NCBI GenBank assembly: GCA_013360915.1
Contig: JABWAT010000019.1
Coordinates: 1-50,703, forward strand
DNA from: Bacteroidota bacterium
GTDB lineage: Bacteria; Bacteroidota; JABWAT01
Direction of reading: 5' to 3'
Length of the DNA: 50,703 nt
Below the pieces are notes generated by a model that saw only the letters and a program-made list of their open reading frames with translations, did not search any database and was not told where the DNA came from. The position numbers were made by a program, and so were the translations under genes. This document shows positions 38,234 to 47,149 of the stretch, piece after piece (the stretch's first letter is position 1; the number at the start of each line of letters is the position of its first letter).

Positions 38234-38881
38234 ATGACACTCCGTGAAAAAATCAGCAAACTCACCGACCGTTTCGGGCAACTGATTCCATCGCCCCAGA
38301 CGGAACTGGAGTTCAATACTCCCTATCAGCTGCTGGTGGCAACGGTCATGGCTGCGCAGGCCACCGACCGTCAGGTAAATGTGATCACCAGAACGCTTTT
38401 CCGCGTGGCTCCTGACCCAACAAGCATGGTGTCTCTGGGTGAGGAAGGCATTTTTCATTATATCCGGTCCATCAATTACAACCGCACAAAGGCCGGTCAC
38501 ATCTATTCACTTTCTGTACAATTGATTGATGAATTTGGTGGTGAAGTCCCCGCTTCCATGGAGGACCTTCAGCGGCTTCCCGGAGTTGGCAGAAAAACAG
38601 CCTCTGTGGTGTTGATCTGTGCTTTCAACATTCCGGCCTTTCCTGTCGATACCCATGTGTTCCGGGTATCAAACCGATTGGGAATTGCGAAAGCCTCCAA
38701 CGTCAGTAAAACAGAGGAACAGTTGCGGAAACGACTACCTGAATCGGACTGGTACCGGTTTCATCATTACCTCATCCTGCATGGCCGGTACACCTGTAAA
38801 GCAAAAAATCCTTCTTGCGAAACCTGCCAGGTCCGTGACTTGTGCAGTGAATATTCCGGCCGTACCCGCCCGGATCGCTGA
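38234..38881 (+). CDS. nth: Endonuclease III (DNA glycosylase/AP lyase)
   Basis: This base-excision-repair enzyme removes oxidised pyrimidines and cleaves the abasic site. The 215-residue protein contains the helix-hairpin-helix LQRLPGVGRKTASVVL with the catalytic Lys, the catalytic Asp in FPVDTHVFRVSNRLG, and the C-terminal [4Fe-4S] cluster motif C-X6-C-X2-C-X5-C (CKAKNPSCETCQVRDLC). All expected active residues are intact and the length is standard. It starts at the ATG at 38234. The 100 bases before it show no clear promoter. It is followed, after about 70 bases, by the GH2-like membrane protein. Confidence 0.97.
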   Translation: MTLREKISKLTDRFGQLIPSPQTELEFNTPYQLLVATVMAAQATDRQVNVITRTLFRVAPDPTSMVSLGEEGIFHYIRSINYNRTKAGHIYSLSVQLIDEFGGEVPASMEDLQRLPGVGRKTASVVLICAFNIPAFPVDTHVFRVSNRLGIAKASNVSKTEEQLRKRLPESDWYRFHHYLILHGRYTCKAKNPSCETCQVRDLCSEYSGRTRPDR

Positions 38882-38950
38882 TTCCGGATTAAATTGATTT
38901 TACAGGCCCTGTTAAGTACCTTCGGCAACTTTTTAACCACCTCATCCTTC

Positions 38951-41431
38951 ATGAATTTTTTCTCAAAACGGGCCATTTTCGGGCTGATTGCCGCATTTCT
39001 GATATTGACTTCAGGCCTGGCACAGACCCCTGCTTCCACCCAGCAGACCCTTCGTCTCGGATCGGGCTGGTTGCTGCTGTCTGCTGAACCTGCACAACCG
39101 ATTGATCTTCCTTTCTTTACGGGTCCGGCCGGCCAGCTGATTCTGCAAACCAGTTTCGACACACCCGACCTGATCAATAAAACCGTGATCCTGCGGTCTG
39201 CAGGCATCAATTTCCAATCCAGATTGTATCTGAATGATCAGCTGATCGTCCTTCACCCGGGCGGATACCTACCGCTCGAGGTTCCCATTCCCTCCGAATT
39301 TTTTAACGGTCCTGTTTCTGTCCTCAGGATCGAAATGGAAACTTCACCAGATTATAAGGGCACGGTTCCTCTGATCAGCAAACCGGGTGGTCCGCGTCCG
39401 GTCGCAGGAATTTTTTCGGTACCAGAATTGGTCATATCTGGTCCGGTCTCAATCGGATCGGTCTCCCCGGCTTATTCGATTAGTGGTGATCAGGTCGTTT
39501 TTTCTCCGACCGTTCGCTTGAGGGTGTCTCAAGCCTTCGGCGAGGGAGAAAAACCGGTTAGCGTTCGGGTGACCGTCAGTGACTCAACCGGGAAAATGGT
39601 TTGGTATGATCAGTCCATGACGGCCGGATCGGCCTCTGCACAGACCGGAGAGCTCCGTTTTCCAACACTTTCCTTTGCAGGTCCTCAGTGGAAACCTTCA
39701 GCACCCTCGGTTCAGCGTGTTTCGGTCACGGTAAGCCGTGATACCACGATCATTGATCAGGCCGATCTCTTCACCGGATTCAGGCAATTGACCGCATTGA
39801 AAAATGCCTGGGTGATTGGTACTGATACGCTGAAAATCAAGGGAGTTGAGTATTACAATCACCACCGGTCGGCCGATGCATTGGCGGCCGCCCGCAAAGA
39901 TTTGCTGGCCATGAAACGGGCAGGGGTCAATACAGTCCGGTTTGCGGGCTATCCACCCACACACGATGTCCTGGCTCTATGTGATTCTCTTGGACTGATG
40001 GTCTTTTCCGGATTACCTGTGTCAGATGTTCCTGTCTCGTTTATGAGTGACCCGGGTTATCAGCAGGTGCTGGCCAATCAGGCAACCCGTCAGCTTGAAA
40101 CGGAATCCCTTCACCCCTCAGTGGTGGCATTTTCACTGGGCGGCCCGGTTCTTTCTACTTCCGATCTGAGCTGGTATAACGAATGGGGTCAACTGATCGC
40201 GGGATCCTGGCCGCATTTAAAACCAGCCGTCACCATTCCTGCCGGTGAATTGGTTCCCCTTCTGGCTCCGGGGATCCTTCCGTTTATTGATGTGACCGGA
40301 TTGAACCTGCAGGAGACCAGACAATTTCTCACCGATTTTTCTGACGATCGTCCTTCCTTAATAACCGGTCTTGGAATCCAGTTTAACCCGGCCAACCATC
40401 AGGGCTATGCCGATCCTTACAGCGTACAGCATCAGGCCAAATATCTGATGGATACCTGGCCACTGATCCGGGATTCAAAACAGGCCGCAGGGGCCGTCAT
40501 TCGCTCCTGGAATGATAAACCTGCAGGTGCCGTCAGCATGAAATCGGGTTTCTCTGATGATCAGCTGGTTTACACCGGATTGGTTTCATCAGATGGTCAG
40601 GTACGGCCAGCCATGGATTATCTGAAATCGCTCTTTGCCGGAGAAGTGGTTTTTAATCCGTCCGTGGGTCGGTTTCAGAATGATATTCAGGTCGTTTTTC
40701 CTGTGGTCGGTGTACTGATCATTTTCTTCTTTTCGTTTCTGTACAGTTCAAACCGTCGGTTCAAGGACAATCTGACCAGAAGTTTTGTGCGGTCATTTAA
40801 CTTTTTCTCCGATGTCAGAGAGCAGCGGGTTATGCTCGGATTCCAGTCACTTGGCCTCCTGATCATGATCACGGCCACCTTTGCCTCCCTGCTGATCAGT
40901 GTGCTGTATGCGTTCAGAAACGATTCCTCGGTCGACTTTCTCCTCAGTATTCTCCTGCCTTGGGAATCCATCCGGTCGGTTCTCATTGGTCTGGTATGGA
41001 ACCCGGTGGTGGGAATTCTGTCTCTTTCCGGCTTGATAGTTCTGATTTTAATCATCGGGGTTGGAATCGGAATCGCGTTTGCCTGGCTTTTCCGTACACG
41101 GGTGGGTTTTTCTCAGGTGATGATCGCCATGACCTGGTCCTCGACCCCCGTGCTGCTGCTTGTGCCGGTTCCAATGATATTTGAACAGGTTGCCGGGGCA
41201 GGATCTGACTGGATCTGGCTGACCTTTCTGGTAATCGGTCTTGTGCTGATCTGGCTGTTTTTCAGAATTTTAAAAGGACTTTCGGTCATCCTCATGTCCG
41301 GAGCAGGTAAAGTGTACCTCAGTGGGCTTCTTTTACTGGTGGCAGCGGTGGCATTGACAGTGTTTCACTACCATTATCACTATCAGGCCTTTGCTTACTG
41401 GGATTATTGGGTGAATACGGTCCGGTGGTAA
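38951..41431 (+). CDS. GH2-like pseudoenzyme fused to a multi-helix membrane domain
   Basis: From the ATG at 38951 this 826-residue protein has a signal peptide (ending GLAQ). Beta-sandwich regions like the sugar-binding and Ig domains of GH2 glycosidases occupy about 25-280. A TIM-barrel-like domain follows (about 283-566; LKIKGVEYYNHH, LLAMKRAGVNTVRF, LCDSLGLMVFSG). About six transmembrane helices lie between 578 and 815. In GH2 enzymes the barrel carries Asn-Glu after the HPSV...SLG strand and a TExG motif for the nucleophile. Here the sequences are HPSVVAFSLGGPV (Gly397-Gly398) and TGLG (Gly473), so both catalytic glutamates seem lost. The membrane part resembles Yip1/DUF-type domains only loosely. 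It is four bases before smc. I infer a non-catalytic glycan-binding or scaffold role. Confidence 0.7.
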   Translation: MNFFSKRAIFGLIAAFLILTSGLAQTPASTQQTLRLGSGWLLLSAEPAQPIDLPFFTGPAGQLILQTSFDTPDLINKTVILRSAGINFQSRLYLNDQLIVLHPGGYLPLEVPIPSEFFNGPVSVLRIEMETSPDYKGTVPLISKPGGPRPVAGIFSVPELVISGPVSIGSVSPAYSISGDQVVFSPTVRLRVSQAFGEGEKPVSVRVTVSDSTGKMVWYDQSMTAGSASAQTGELRFPTLSFAGPQWKPSAPSVQRVSVTVSRDTTIIDQADLFTGFRQLTALKNAWVIGTDTLKIKGVEYYNHHRSADALAAARKDLLAMKRAGVNTVRFAGYPPTHDVLALCDSLGLMVFSGLPVSDVPVSFMSDPGYQQVLANQATRQLETESLHPSVVAFSLGGPVLSTSDLSWYNEWGQLIAGSWPHLKPAVTIPAGELVPLLAPGILPFIDVTGLNLQETRQFLTDFSDDRPSLITGLGIQFNPANHQGYADPYSVQHQAKYLMDTWPLIRDSKQAAGAVIRSWNDKPAGAVSMKSGFSDDQLVYTGLVSSDGQVRPAMDYLKSLFAGEVVFNPSVGRFQNDIQVVFPVVGVLIIFFFSFLYSSNRRFKDNLTRSFVRSFNFFSDVREQRVMLGFQSLGLLIMITATFASLLISVLYAFRNDSSVDFLLSILLPWESIRSVLIGLVWNPVVGILSLSGLIVLILIIGVGIGIAFAWLFRTRVGFSQVMIAMTWSSTPVLLLVPVPMIFEQVAGAGSDWIWLTFLVIGLVLIWLFFRILKGLSVILMSGAGKVYLSGLLLLVAAVALTVFHYHYHYQAFAYWDYWVNTVRW

Positions 41432-41434
41432 TGC

Positions 41435-44400
41435 ATGTATCTCAGTAAACTCGAACTGCACGGATTCAAATCCTTTGCACAGAAGACCACGGTCCGTTTC
41501 GATCAGGGAATCACCTCGATTGTCGGGCCCAACGGCTGCGGAAAGACCAATGTCGCCGATGCCATCCGCTGGGTGCTCGGGGAACAGAAGGCCTCCACCC
41601 TCCGGTCCGATAAAATGGAGAATGTGATCTTCAACGGAACCCGGACCCGTAAGCCACTTGGTATGTCAGAGGTCTCTCTGACCATCGAAAACACCAAGAA
41701 TATCCTCCCTACTGAATACTCAGAAGTTATTATCACCCGCAGACTTTACCGGTCGGGTGAATCTGAATACCTGCTTAACAAAATTCCCTGCCGCCTGAAG
41801 GATATTGTTGATCTCTTTATGGATACCGGAATGGGCCCCGATGCTTATTCCGTCATCGAGTTAAAGATGATCGAGGATATCCTTTCAGAACGGTTCGATG
41901 ATCGCCGGAAATTATTTGAAGAAGCCGCCGGGGTGACCAAATACAAAGTCCGCCGCAAACAGGCTCTTAAGAAATTAGAACAAACCCGGCATGATCTGGA
42001 ACGGATCAATGACATCATTGCCGAGGTTCAGAAAAGTGTTCAGTCGCTTGAGCGGCAGGCCAAAAAGGCCGAGTTGTATGAAGTGTACATGAAGGAACTG
42101 AGGGATCTCGATCTGAACCATTCAGAACGTGAATACTCTGCACTCCGTCTTCGTCTGGATCCGCTGAAAGAAGCCCTGAATAAGCTGATTCATGAGCTGG
42201 AAACCGAATCAACTGCTGTAATAACCGAGGATGCTGCCCTCGAAAAGACCAATCTGGAACTGACCGTTATTCAGAATGAACTTTCCATCCGCCAGAAGGA
42301 AATGAATGTTCAGATTCAGTCTATTCAGCGTGAAGAAGAAGGCATTTCGGTCCGCAGGGAAAGAAAAAGAAGCAACGAGGAGAGCATCCGGCGGCACGAG
42401 CAGGAAATTGCTGAAATTCATCAGACCCTGGACAGCCTGAAAAGTCCGGAATCTGAAACCGAAGCCCGGCTGGAAAACCTGACCAAACTGGCTGCCTCTG
42501 CCGAAACGGCTTTCCAGTTGGTACAGGAAACCTTTTCTTCCTTTGAGCAATCGGTCAGTGAAAAACGCCGTGAAGTCGGTGCAGCCCTGCAAAAGGTTCA
42601 GACACTGAACCGGGACCTCTCACAGATTGAGACGGAGCGTGAAAGACTGGTGGCCCGCCGCGATGCCGCTCAGAACCGGATTGGTGTTCTCAGAAAGGAA
42701 ATCAGTTCCTTCACCGAACAATCCGATGACCTGACTTCTGAGCTGGATGAAATCCGCTTCGAACTGAAACGTTCCCAGGAACAGGTTGCAGCAGAGGAAG
42801 CCCGGTTGCAGCAGGTCGAATCGCAGATCGAAGAAACCCGGAAACAGATCGATGCTGCCCGGACCTTGCTTAATGCCTCCGATCTGGAAATACGGACTCA
42901 CGAAAACCGGAAATCCTTCCTCCTTTCCGTTCTGGAAAGTCATGAAGATCTTCCCGAAGGAACCCGGCTGCTGATCAGACAGGGAAAACTGAAGAAAAAG
43001 AAAACGCTGGCCGATCTGCTGGTGGTTTCAGATGACCGGTATGTCCCTGTCATTAACCGGTGGTTGGGCGATCGTGGCTCCCTGCTGGTTGCCGACTCGG
43101 CCGAAGATGCTCTGGAACATCTCAGTTGGCTGAAATCCGAGAAAAAGGGTCTTGCGGGATTTATCCTCACCGACCGGGTCACCTCTGGTCCCGATCAGTC
43201 AATGCCGGTCCTGAAAGGGGCCCGTCCTCTGCAGGAGGTGGTTTCCTCCCGGTCGCTGCCCGACGGATTGCTGGCGGTTCTGTGTTGGGGTGTTTACGTT
43301 ACCGATGACAGGGAAACAGCAGCCAATCTGCAGAAACAGCATGGATCCCTGACGTTTCTGACTTCTGACGGTTTCATCTTCAGCGATCAATCGGCCATCC
43401 GGGGAGGCGCCTCTGCAAACGAGAAGGAATCCAGACTCGGGGTGGAAGCAAAACTGAATGATCTGGAAAGGATCATTTCCCAATGGAAAGAGAAGAAGGA
43501 AAAATCGGCAGGAGAGATCACTCAACTGCAATCGGGACTGGATGCCCTGCTGCTTTCCCGTTCTGATCAGGTGGTTCGCGATATCAGAAAACGGGTTTCA
43601 GAACTGGAAAAACAGGCCGCTCAGTTAGATGCCTCCATTCAATCTTCGAAGAAACGTGCCGGTTATGATGAACAGGAAATCCTTCGTCTGGAACAGGAAA
43701 CCCGGCTGCTGAATGGACAGATAGAAGACCTGCTCCCCGATATCGATGAAAAATCTTACGAGCTTAAAAAGCTTCAGGGATCTTCTGCCACCATGCAGGA
43801 GTCGCTGCGTCAGCTGGAATCCGAATGGACGTCTCAATCGGCTCAGTTGCAGGATGCACGTGCCAAATGGATTACCTTCCAGAGTCAGGCAGAAAATGCT
43901 GCCAATGACCTGAAACGACTTCGGGAACAAAAGACAGACCTTTCCGACCGGATTACCCGCCGGCTATCCGATATTCAAAACTCCAGACAACAGATTGACC
44001 TGATCATCAGGGAAATCAGTGAAGCTGAAACCCGGCTGGTGTCGCTTTACGAAACCCGTGATCAATCCAGGGTGACCATCGATCAGCTCGAGGTCCGGCA
44101 ATCTGAATTACGGGGCGATGTCAACCGCATTGAATCACGTCTGAGGGACCTCCGGATCCGCAAAGAAACTCTGTTGAACCTCCGGACAGGGCATGAACTT
44201 AAAATTCAGGAAACCGAGTTTTCTATCACCAGCCTTGAACGCCGGATTCTTGACGATTACAATGTTGAACTGGCAGTTAAAACCTTTACCGATCAGTCCG
44301 ACATGGATTCCGCCCGGCTTGCCGACGAAGTGAAACGGTACCGCGAACGGATCAGAGGTCTTGGCAATGTGAATACCGGAGCCCTTGAAGAGTATAAGGC

Positions 44401-44971
44401 TGCCAGGGAACGATTCGAGTTCATGTCTTCTCAACGCGAGGATCTGGTCGGAGCCGAAGCCAACCTGAAACAGGTGATTGATGAGATAAATCAGACCGCA
44501 CAGACCCAGTTTCAGAATGTGTTTACCCAGATCCGGGATAACTTTCATTCAACCTTTGCGACCCTGTTCGAACCCGGCGATGAAGCCGATCTTATCCTCG
44601 AAGACAATCCGGATCCGCTGGAAGCCAAAATTGAAATCATTGCAAAACCACGCGGGAAAAGACCTCAGTCCATCACCTTGCTGTCAGGCGGAGAGAAAAC
44701 GCTGACGGCAATCGCGCTTCTGTTTGCCATCTATCTGGTAAAACCGTCACCTTTCTGTATTCTTGATGAAGTGGATGCACCACTGGATGATGCCAACATT
44801 GATCGTTTCTCAAAAATCATCCGGCGGTTCAGTAAGGACACCCAGTTTATCATCATCACCCACAATAAAAAAACCATGGAAGTAGCCAATACCCTGTATG
44901 GCGTTACCATGGAAGAAAAAGGGGTGTCCAAGTTGGTCTCAGTCCGGTTTGATGAAGATGTCCCTGCCTGA
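41435..44971 (+). CDS. smc: Chromosome segregation ATPase SMC
   Basis: SMC homodimers with ScpA/ScpB organise and segregate the chromosome. The 1178-residue protein has the N-terminal head with Walker A GPNGCGKTN, a long coiled coil (about 170-500), a hinge (about 520-650, GSLLVADSAEDAL region), a returning coiled coil, and the C-terminal head with signature LLSGGEKTLTAIAL and Walker B FCILDEVDAPLDDANI. Length and motifs are standard. It starts four bases after the GH2-like gene, and its end overlaps the start of lpxB by 20 bases. scpA and scpB are not in the window. Confidence 0.97.
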   Translation: MYLSKLELHGFKSFAQKTTVRFDQGITSIVGPNGCGKTNVADAIRWVLGEQKASTLRSDKMENVIFNGTRTRKPLGMSEVSLTIENTKNILPTEYSEVIITRRLYRSGESEYLLNKIPCRLKDIVDLFMDTGMGPDAYSVIELKMIEDILSERFDDRRKLFEEAAGVTKYKVRRKQALKKLEQTRHDLERINDIIAEVQKSVQSLERQAKKAELYEVYMKELRDLDLNHSEREYSALRLRLDPLKEALNKLIHELETESTAVITEDAALEKTNLELTVIQNELSIRQKEMNVQIQSIQREEEGISVRRERKRSNEESIRRHEQEIAEIHQTLDSLKSPESETEARLENLTKLAASAETAFQLVQETFSSFEQSVSEKRREVGAALQKVQTLNRDLSQIETERERLVARRDAAQNRIGVLRKEISSFTEQSDDLTSELDEIRFELKRSQEQVAAEEARLQQVESQIEETRKQIDAARTLLNASDLEIRTHENRKSFLLSVLESHEDLPEGTRLLIRQGKLKKKKTLADLLVVSDDRYVPVINRWLGDRGSLLVADSAEDALEHLSWLKSEKKGLAGFILTDRVTSGPDQSMPVLKGARPLQEVVSSRSLPDGLLAVLCWGVYVTDDRETAANLQKQHGSLTFLTSDGFIFSDQSAIRGGASANEKESRLGVEAKLNDLERIISQWKEKKEKSAGEITQLQSGLDALLLSRSDQVVRDIRKRVSELEKQAAQLDASIQSSKKRAGYDEQEILRLEQETRLLNGQIEDLLPDIDEKSYELKKLQGSSATMQESLRQLESEWTSQSAQLQDARAKWITFQSQAENAANDLKRLREQKTDLSDRITRRLSDIQNSRQQIDLIIREISEAETRLVSLYETRDQSRVTIDQLEVRQSELRGDVNRIESRLRDLRIRKETLLNLRTGHELKIQETEFSITSLERRILDDYNVELAVKTFTDQSDMDSARLADEVKRYRERIRGLGNVNTGALEEYKAARERFEFMSSQREDLVGAEANLKQVIDEINQTAQTQFQNVFTQIRDNFHSTFATLFEPGDEADLILEDNPDPLEAKIEIIAKPRGKRPQSITLLSGGEKTLTAIALLFAIYLVKPSPFCILDEVDAPLDDANIDRFSKIIRRFSKDTQFIIITHNKKTMEVANTLYGVTMEEKGVSKLVSVRFDEDVPA

Positions 44972-46112
44972 AAAACCACCCGCAGTCATGATACTGGCGG
45001 GGGAAGCCTCGGGTGATCGGCATGGTGCAGACCTGGTTCGTGAACTCAAAGCTCTCAATCCTCAGCTAACCTTCTTCGGAATGGGCGGTGACCGGATGAA
45101 GGCAGAGGGTGTTGAACTGTTTTTTCATATCAGCCAGACTTCGATCATGGGCTTTACCGAGGTGATCCGGCACCTGCCCTTCATTTTTCAAATGAAGAAA
45201 ACACTCGAACAGGCGGTAGCCGATCGCCGGCCGGTGTATGCCGTTCTGATTGATTATCCGGGGTTTAATCTCCGGTTTGCCCGGTTTCTTCATCAGAATA
45301 ATGTTCCCGTCATCTGGTACATCGCCCCTCAGGTCTGGGCTTGGGGGAAGGGAAGACTCAAGGACATCAGACGGTATGTCGATCTGATGCTTTGCATCCT
45401 GCCCTTTGAGGAACCGTTTTTCAGAAAAGCAGGAATCCGTGCTCACTTTGTGGGCCATCCACTTGTCGAGCAGATTGAGGTATCGGGCTCCTCATCCGCT
45501 TTTCTTTCCTCAATTTCGCTCCCAGACGACCGGCCGTTGATCGGTCTTCTGCCTGGTTCCCGCAGCCAGGAAGTCAGTGCCCTTCTGCCGGTAATGGTCA
45601 ATGCTGTTCTTCCTCTGATCCAACAGGGCAGGGTATCTGCGGCTGTGGCGGGTGTTAATCATCTGCCGCCAGATGTTTATAAACCTGCCGGAGAGGCAGG
45701 AATTCCGGTGGTTTTCGGTAAAGTACATGATCTCATGGGACATTCCACCCTGTCGGTGGTGGCCTCCGGCACAGCCACCCTTGAAACAGCTTTATGTGGA
45801 ACTCCTCTGATCGTCGTCTATAAAACCAGCTGGCTTACCTACCTGATCGGGCGCTTCATTCTGCGCCTCGACCGAATTTCACTCGTGAATATCATCCCCG
45901 ATGAACAGCTTGTTCCCGAACTGATTCAGCATGAAGCCAATCCGGAATCCATCCGGAAACAGATACTCTCCTGGCTGGATCAGCCTGCCGGACGCGAAAT
46001 GGTTATCGAAAAACTGGCCCGGCTGAGAAAACAACTGGGAAGTCTGTCTGCAAGCCGCGAGGCTGCAAGTCGGATTCAGGGCCGGGTTTCAGGCAACGGC
46101 AGCTGGGAATGA
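44952..46112 (+). CDS. lpxB: Lipid-A-disaccharide synthase
   Basis: LpxB condenses UDP-2,3-diacylglucosamine with lipid X to form the beta-1,6 disaccharide of lipid A at the inner membrane. From the ATG at 44952 the protein is 386 residues, the family length. An ATG at 44958 would do equally well; the frame upstream lies within smc and is unlike LpxB. Diagnostic motifs are LAGEASGDRHGADLV, FFGMGGDRM, the SIMGFTEVIRHLP segment, IDYPGFNLRFA, YIAPQVWAWG, LPFEEPFF, FVGHPLVE and LLPGSRSQEV. GT-B family, GT19. It overlaps smc and lpxK, so it is translationally coupled to both. Confidence 0.96.
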   Translation: MKMSLPEKPPAVMILAGEASGDRHGADLVRELKALNPQLTFFGMGGDRMKAEGVELFFHISQTSIMGFTEVIRHLPFIFQMKKTLEQAVADRRPVYAVLIDYPGFNLRFARFLHQNNVPVIWYIAPQVWAWGKGRLKDIRRYVDLMLCILPFEEPFFRKAGIRAHFVGHPLVEQIEVSGSSSAFLSSISLPDDRPLIGLLPGSRSQEVSALLPVMVNAVLPLIQQGRVSAAVAGVNHLPPDVYKPAGEAGIPVVFGKVHDLMGHSTLSVVASGTATLETALCGTPLIVVYKTSWLTYLIGRFILRLDRISLVNIIPDEQLVPELIQHEANPESIRKQILSWLDQPAGREMVIEKLARLRKQLGSLSASREAASRIQGRVSGNGSWE

Positions 46113-47149
46113 AGCGGTTCGGGACAGCCTGGCAATGGATCATGCTTCCGCTGACCGCCTTGTACGGTCTGGCCATCTGGTGCAGAAATCTGGCCTGGCA
46201 GACCGGATGGCTGAAACCTGAAAAGGTGCCGGTGACGGTTATCTCGGTCGGAAATCTCACCGCCGGTGGTACAGGAAAAACCCCGGTTACTGCCTGGCTG
46301 GCAGGTATCCTGATCAGAGAGGGATTCACCGTCGGATTGGTTTCCAGAGGTTACGGCAGGTCAACCCGCGGTTTTGTATTGGTTTCTGATGGAAGATCCG
46401 TCCTCGTAACTGCCGATCAGGGAGGCGATGAACCTGTCGAACTGGCTCGATCCCTTCCCGGACTTCTTGTGGCGGTATCCGAAAAACGGCTGATTGCAGC
46501 CAACCACTTGTGCGCTCATTTTAAACCCGATGTTCTCATTATGGATGATGGCTTTCAGCACCGGGCCTTACACCGGGATATGGACATTGTGGTTCAGGAC
46601 TACCCGTCCTGGATTGGAACTCACTGGCTGTTGCCTTCCGGTCCCTTCAGAGAACCCGTGTCAGGTTTAAATCGCGCCCATTGGCTGGTCTGGACAAGGA
46701 CTGCCCCGGGAGAGTGGCCGGTCTTCCGAAGAACGGAACCCGTTCATCAGGCGCTTTTCGCTCAGGAACCCGCCACACTCATCGAGTGGAGCACCGGAAA
46801 TCAGTGGCCCGTTTCCTCCTTGCCGTTCAGGCGGGTTGCCGCCATTGCAGGTATTGGTGATCCTGACCAGTTTTTCTTGTCCCTGCAGAAATCGCGGCTT
46901 CCCGTGGTGGTAACCCGGGCCTTTCCTGATCATGAACCGTACCCCCAACCTGTAAAATCAGATGTGGTTCAATGGATGCTTAAAGCTGGTTGTGAGGCAC
47001 TAATCATGACGGCCAAAGATGCGGTGAAATGGTCTGCCGTGGATCTTCCGGCCGGAATTACCGGACTGATGGTCCTTTCCCGTGTGGTTCCCGATCCGTC
47101 CCTTGCCCGATTATCCGGTGAGGTCATCCAAAGGGTGCGCCCATCGTGA
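46109..47149 (+). CDS. lpxK: Tetraacyldisaccharide 4'-kinase
   Basis: LpxK phosphorylates the 4' position of the tetraacyl disaccharide to give lipid IVA, a membrane-associated P-loop kinase step. The 346-residue product has an N-terminal hydrophobic anchor (about 10-28), the P-loop in GNLTAGGTGKTP, SRGYGR, GDEPVELAR, IMDDGFQHRAL with the catalytic Asp/His, and the late MTAKDAVKW segment. All are normal for the family. The ATG overlaps the lpxB stop by four bases. It ends the operon that begins with nth or the GH2-like gene. About 105 AT-rich bases separate it from queA. Confidence 0.95.
   Translation: MKRFGTAWQWIMLPLTALYGLAIWCRNLAWQTGWLKPEKVPVTVISVGNLTAGGTGKTPVTAWLAGILIREGFTVGLVSRGYGRSTRGFVLVSDGRSVLVTADQGGDEPVELARSLPGLLVAVSEKRLIAANHLCAHFKPDVLIMDDGFQHRALHRDMDIVVQDYPSWIGTHWLLPSGPFREPVSGLNRAHWLVWTRTAPGEWPVFRRTEPVHQALFAQEPATLIEWSTGNQWPVSSLPFRRVAAIAGIGDPDQFFLSLQKSRLPVVVTRAFPDHEPYPQPVKSDVVQWMLKAGCEALIMTAKDAVKWSAVDLPAGITGLMVLSRVVPDPSLARLSGEVIQRVRPS

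Follow-up and report, generated by a model that had tools for sequence, protein, structure and literature searches.

Within the window analysed here, a stretch of 50,703 nucleotides from a Bacteroidota bacterium, the open reading frame at 38951..41431 encodes a barrel of the glycoside hydrolase family 2 (GH2) type that lacks both catalytic glutamates and is fused to a membrane domain. This raises the question of what a cell would gain from keeping such a protein. An earlier note on this DNA had proposed a membrane-tethered pseudoenzyme that binds glycans or serves as a scaffold. The present analysis supports the pseudoenzyme and the tether, but not glycan binding by the old pocket, since the pocket residues vary among family members that have lost both glutamates. 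On balance, we hold it to be moderately probable that the protein is a non-hydrolytic envelope pseudoenzyme whose dead GH2 barrel acts as a scaffold or signalling partner, with a possible tie to the cell cycle. In the accessible parts of the open-licence literature we found no description of a fusion between GH2 and Yip1, of a membrane-bound GH2 protein lacking activity or of a GH2 protein of Kryptonia. What this analysis adds is the size of the family, the existence of intact relatives, the estimates of selection, the Yip1-like domain, and the linkage to smc and ftsZ.

The GH2 module and its membrane domain

The reading frame was confirmed, and from its ATG start it translates into 826 residues. 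An alternative TTG start at 38894 is possible, but would extend the protein beyond the signal peptide. All features described below lie on the + strand, as does the gene itself. Hydropathy places the signal peptide at residues 1-25 (MNFFSKRAIFGLIAAFLILTSGLAQ; 38951..39025), with a putative cleavage site and low model confidence at residues 22-28. An AlphaFold model of the window protein, based on a 75-sequence alignment (pLDDT 88, pTM 0.85), shows a jelly roll, an Ig-like domain and a TIM barrel, followed by helices. Model and Foldseek together delimit the N-terminal jelly-roll domain (residues 30-165; 39038..39445), the Ig-like domain (residues 166-284; 39446..39802) and the TIM barrel (residues 285-575; 39803..40675). 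The barrel was also recognised by Pfam GH2_C (36.9 bits at residues 295-397, with a cut-off of 21) and by comparison of the family profile with the PDB, where the best match was the beta-glucuronidase 6ncy (3e-68). The top Foldseek matches of the model, a comparison that had been suggested beforehand, were all GH2 proteins and mostly beta-glucuronidases, including 5uj6 at 8e-33. The GH2 fold that had been read from the letters is thus borne out by sequence and structure. With GH2 enzymes of the beta-glucuronidase/beta-galactosidase type (5uj6, 6ncy) the window protein shares the order of the three domains and the beta-2 Arg. It differs from them in that the acid/base and nucleophile Glu and other pocket residues are gone and a six-helix membrane domain has been gained.

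About six transmembrane helices had been expected in the C-terminal part, and six were found by hydropathy and in the models (residues 578-600, 630-654, 685-713, a bundle at 720-750, 753-781 and 785-811). The charge pattern (positive-inside) fits, and together with hydropathy suggests, a topology with the barrel outside and loops 1, 3 and 5 inside. TM1 (residues 578-600; 40682..40750), which is also present in the model, would then cross from the periplasm to the cytoplasm. It is followed by a cytoplasmic juxtamembrane motif (residues 601-626; 40751..40828), which in the family reads RRFRExxxRSLxRPYNFFADVRDQR, and by a Yip1-like five-helix domain (residues 627-826; 40829..41428).

The five helices after TM1, which are present in the models as in the Yip1 domain, matched Pfam Yip1 (PF04893) in 47 of 75 relatives (E≤0.01, best 9.5e-9), and one relative exceeded the curated gathering cut-off. 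The window protein's own membrane domain had no Pfam Yip1 match, and a Foldseek search of the membrane domain alone against the PDB gave no match. When the family's membrane domain was compared by profile with the free-standing Yip1 proteins that these genomes encode, the match was weak (hhalign E 0.003), and the Yip1 assignment therefore rests on Pfam. Compared with Yip1 proteins, the family adds the extracytoplasmic GH2 module, the extra TM1 and the conserved juxtamembrane motif. Eukaryotic Yip1 members have a role in Rab-linked trafficking. Four of the stand-alone Yip1 proteins encoded in the same genomes as the family (L129, L144, L145 and L146) carry an N-terminal CxxC zinc-ribbon-like stretch, and their Yip1 domain aligns in register with the family's membrane domain. 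The accessible part of a survey of GH2 (PMC12243196) makes no mention of membrane-fused members; its secretion-signal analysis used TMHMM to remove proteins containing transmembrane segments.

Catalytic columns and the pocket

In the alignment, the GH2 Asn and acid/base Glu columns of loop 4 are occupied by Gly398 and Pro399 in the window protein (40142..40147), and the nucleophile Glu column of loop 7 by Gly473 (40367..40369). In ordinary GH2 proteins encoded by this genome and by others of the phylum, the aligned columns read NE and E-x-G almost throughout, which indicates that the catalytic columns were placed correctly. The earlier note had put the first substituted pair at Gly397-Gly398 and the second loss at Gly473. 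Both losses stand, and Gly473 falls exactly in its column; the first position is one residue off, because Gly397 is the Gly of the SLG strand. The residues considered as shaping the GH2 pocket, most of them as named in the accessible part of PMC12243196, were the loop-1 His, the loop-2 His, NE, the loop-6 Tyr, the nucleophile, the loop-8 Trp and the beta-2 Arg. Only the last, Arg330 (39938..39940), is retained in the window protein, and it is present in 99% of the family.

Conservation of the two Gly residues had been considered a possible functional feature. This was rejected, as both catalytic columns are mixed across the 97 family members aligned: the acid/base column holds G in 36, E in 22, N in 15, D in 7, S in 7 and others in the remainder, and the nucleophile column S in 22, R in 19, K in 15, E in 12, A in 9, G in 8 and others in the remainder. 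The nucleophile Glu is therefore missing in 85 of the 97.

Could the protein still be an enzyme, working through other residues or a substrate-assisted mechanism? GH2 subfamilies with a replaced acid/base that are active or possibly so are described in the accessible part of PMC12243196 (SD in GH2_16, Trp or others in GH2_21), and the members of GH2_19 and GH2_21 with a replaced NE resemble the window protein in that the acid/base motif was swapped within the GH2 fold. Furthermore, some relatives from Kryptonia retain the full residue set, as detailed below. However, the same text calls the nucleophile Glu invariant across GH2, whereas the window protein has Gly at this position and most relatives have S, R, K, A or G. 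Moreover, no conserved compensating acid appears in the barrel, as D317, D447 and D522 are fold residues that are common in ordinary GH2 proteins. We therefore regard continued catalysis as very unlikely.

A second alternative, which was part of the original proposal, is a lectin-like glycan sensor in which the old pocket binds sugar without cutting it. The retention of Arg330 and the good conservation of jelly roll and barrel would be in line with this. However, the residues that hold the sugar (loop-1 and loop-2 His, loop-4 NE, loop-6 Tyr and loop-8 Trp) are gone in the window protein, and these positions also vary among the double-loss members: across 57 of them the loop-1 His, loop-2 His, NE, nucleophile and loop-8 Trp drift, whereas the fold residues D317, N327, R330, G348, D447, D522 and G543 are almost fixed. 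This pattern argues for a structural or interaction role of the barrel and against a sugar-binding pocket, and we consider the glycan sensor rather unlikely.

Stepwise loss of the catalytic residues under continued selection

An initial scan of genome contigs with the single sequence gave no relatives; a subsequent search with the family alignment identified 324 proteins with the fused barrel and membrane domain in one genome collection. The same fusion is present in an 18-member alignment. The full-length form occurs in 109 of 394 genomes of the phylum, with one copy each, across 23 taxonomic families. Eighty of the 324 loci were kept for close examination, and their titles name Ignavibacteria, Kapabacteria, Kryptonia, Chlorobi and 'Bacteroidetes'. 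One of them (L099), from a metagenome-assembled genome labelled Armatimonadetes, nests within the family and is probably mislabelled. At all 80 loci a long open frame spans the profile, except in copies cut at contig ends. Homologues with the same fusion had been sought by the earlier note, and the identical architecture in all 80 examined relatives indicates that the fusion is more than chance. A lone in-frame stop was seen in one otherwise full-length copy of the long form (G151:C40), which may represent a sequencing error or a recent inactivation.

Of the 97 aligned members, 66 have neither catalytic Glu, 19 only the acid/base, 9 only the nucleophile and 3 both, with realignment shifting one borderline row from the first of these classes to the nucleophile-only class. 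Some members with a single Glu could thus have kept partial chemistry. Homologues that keep the Glu pair at shifted positions had been named as grounds for refutation; homologues with the pair do exist, but the three proteins concerned, all from Candidatus Kryptonia, have both Glu at the same, unshifted columns. These proteins (L048, L049 and L052) also retain the loop-1 His, HYP, EEIP, N-x-Y and loop-8 Trp motifs, and the one Kryptonia member tested matched GH2_C with 170 bits over nearly its whole length. By their sequences they are candidates for active membrane-bound GH2 enzymes. Their Glu pair shows the ancestry of the family and not an activity of the window protein.

In a tree with canonical GH2 proteins as outgroup, built by a quick method and with long outgroup branches, Kryptonia is among the early-branching lineages, which part at an unresolved fork. 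The tree implies a minimum of 11 changes in the acid/base column and of 5 in the nucleophile column. The simplest reading of these sequences is that the ancestor would have been an active membrane-bound GH2 enzyme that was silenced several times. In a clade of 43 rows (including L011, L041 and L053) the nucleophile is mostly replaced by Arg or Lys, often in an RYGKE-like context.

Selection on the barrel was estimated from pairwise dN/dS values, some of which involve dS values close to saturation. Pairs of double-loss members from two clades (L055/L058/L062 and L036/L037, the latter being the nearest kin of the window protein) gave values of 0.036-0.049, other catalytically incomplete pairs values of up to 0.10, and intact Kryptonia pairs values of 0.058-0.076. 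Pseudogene decay was rejected on account of these low values and the full-length frames. The low dN/dS of the dead barrels implies that a folded barrel is still needed; as judged from the substitutions, it is the fold that is required and not the chemistry. The series from intact Kryptonia proteins through single to double losses, with selection on the fold unchanged, represents a natural experiment in the evolution of an enzyme into a pseudoenzyme. It also has a practical side: because of their GH2 domain, these genes are likely to be labelled beta-galactosidase or glycoside hydrolase, a misnomer for the majority of family members.

These values also bear on the view that the membrane domain alone is functional and the barrel a decaying passenger. 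TM1 with the juxtamembrane loop (residues 576-626) is indeed the most conserved stretch, with a mean pairwise identity of 0.50 versus 0.36 for the barrel, and the two beta domains have been dropped in a short form of the protein, described below. However, a decaying barrel would not be expected to show a dN/dS of 0.04-0.10 in dead members, the examined copies are full-length except at contig ends, and the barrel is retained even where the beta domains are missing, in the short form. A mere passenger is therefore highly improbable.

The favoured reading, a non-hydrolytic envelope pseudoenzyme, can be put as follows. An active membrane-bound GH2 protein, as may still exist in Kryptonia, would have lost both Glu and most pocket residues. 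A Sec signal peptide would direct the three-domain GH2 module across the inner membrane to its periplasmic face, where TM1 and the Yip1-like five-helix domain would anchor it. The folded barrel would have been kept as a binding or scaffold surface, and we infer that its partner is most likely an outside protein or another component of the envelope. The membrane domain, together with the conserved motif on its cytoplasmic side, could then relay the state of the barrel to the inside or organise it there.

Linkage of the long form to smc and of the short form to ftsZ

The gene order in the window is nth (endonuclease III; 38234..38881; TIGR01083 above cut-off), the GH2-like gene, smc (41435..44971; TIGR02168 above cut-off), lpxB (44898..46112) and lpxK (46109..47149), the latter two being assigned by NCBIfam equivalogs. 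The placement directly before smc-lpxB-lpxK, noted previously, is thus correct, with smc starting 3 bp downstream. Among the 80 examined relatives, 52 have smc as the adjoining downstream gene in the same orientation, mostly with gaps of 0-25 bp. The genes upstream differ by clade (tpiA, nth, patatin or pfkB-like), as do those after smc (HAD/PEMT or lpxB), and a Kapabacteria-like clade carries the gene without smc.

The short form of about 560 residues consists of the barrel and the membrane domain only, and was found in 44 other genomes, whose 13 taxonomic families are all distinct from those carrying the long form. The two forms are homologous (hhalign 100%, 2e-45, 489 columns). Neither catalytic Glu was present in the 38 short-form copies examined (L164-L201), one of which was not alignable at these columns. 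At 18 of these 38 loci the gene follows ftsQ-ftsA-ftsZ in the same orientation, either immediately or nearly so, and murC was also seen in 17 of the 18, within the stretch fetched; smc was not found beside the short form. Pfam searches with five short-form copies matched no family. The short forms tested are thus proteins without a Pfam assignment, several of which adjoin ftsZ.

The positions of the long form beside smc and of the short form beside ftsZ, two cell-cycle loci, are suggestive, and it is this linkage that points to a possible role of the family on the envelope side of the cell cycle. There is about an even chance that both linkages represent inherited gene order without functional meaning, which would be compatible with the envelope pseudoenzyme favoured above. 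The linkage tracks clades, the Kapabacteria-like clade lacks smc at this position and the short form does not adjoin it. Against this, the pairing with smc was kept while the flanking genes changed on both sides, and the short form adjoins another cell-cycle operon. More tentatively, the family may represent an undescribed envelope factor, deeply conserved in the part of the Bacteroidota that comprises Ignavibacteria, Kapabacteria and Kryptonia, which combines a dead GH2 barrel with a Yip1-like membrane domain and functions in segregating chromosomes or dividing the cell; the long form would make one unit with smc, and the short form would end a murC-ftsQ-ftsA-ftsZ operon. The linkages to smc and ftsZ make a cell-cycle role directly testable in a bacterial branch whose cell-cycle biology is little studied. 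Lastly, two short-form copies (G324:C2 and G178:C1) contain a single in-frame stop each, which may reflect either sequencing errors or recent inactivation.
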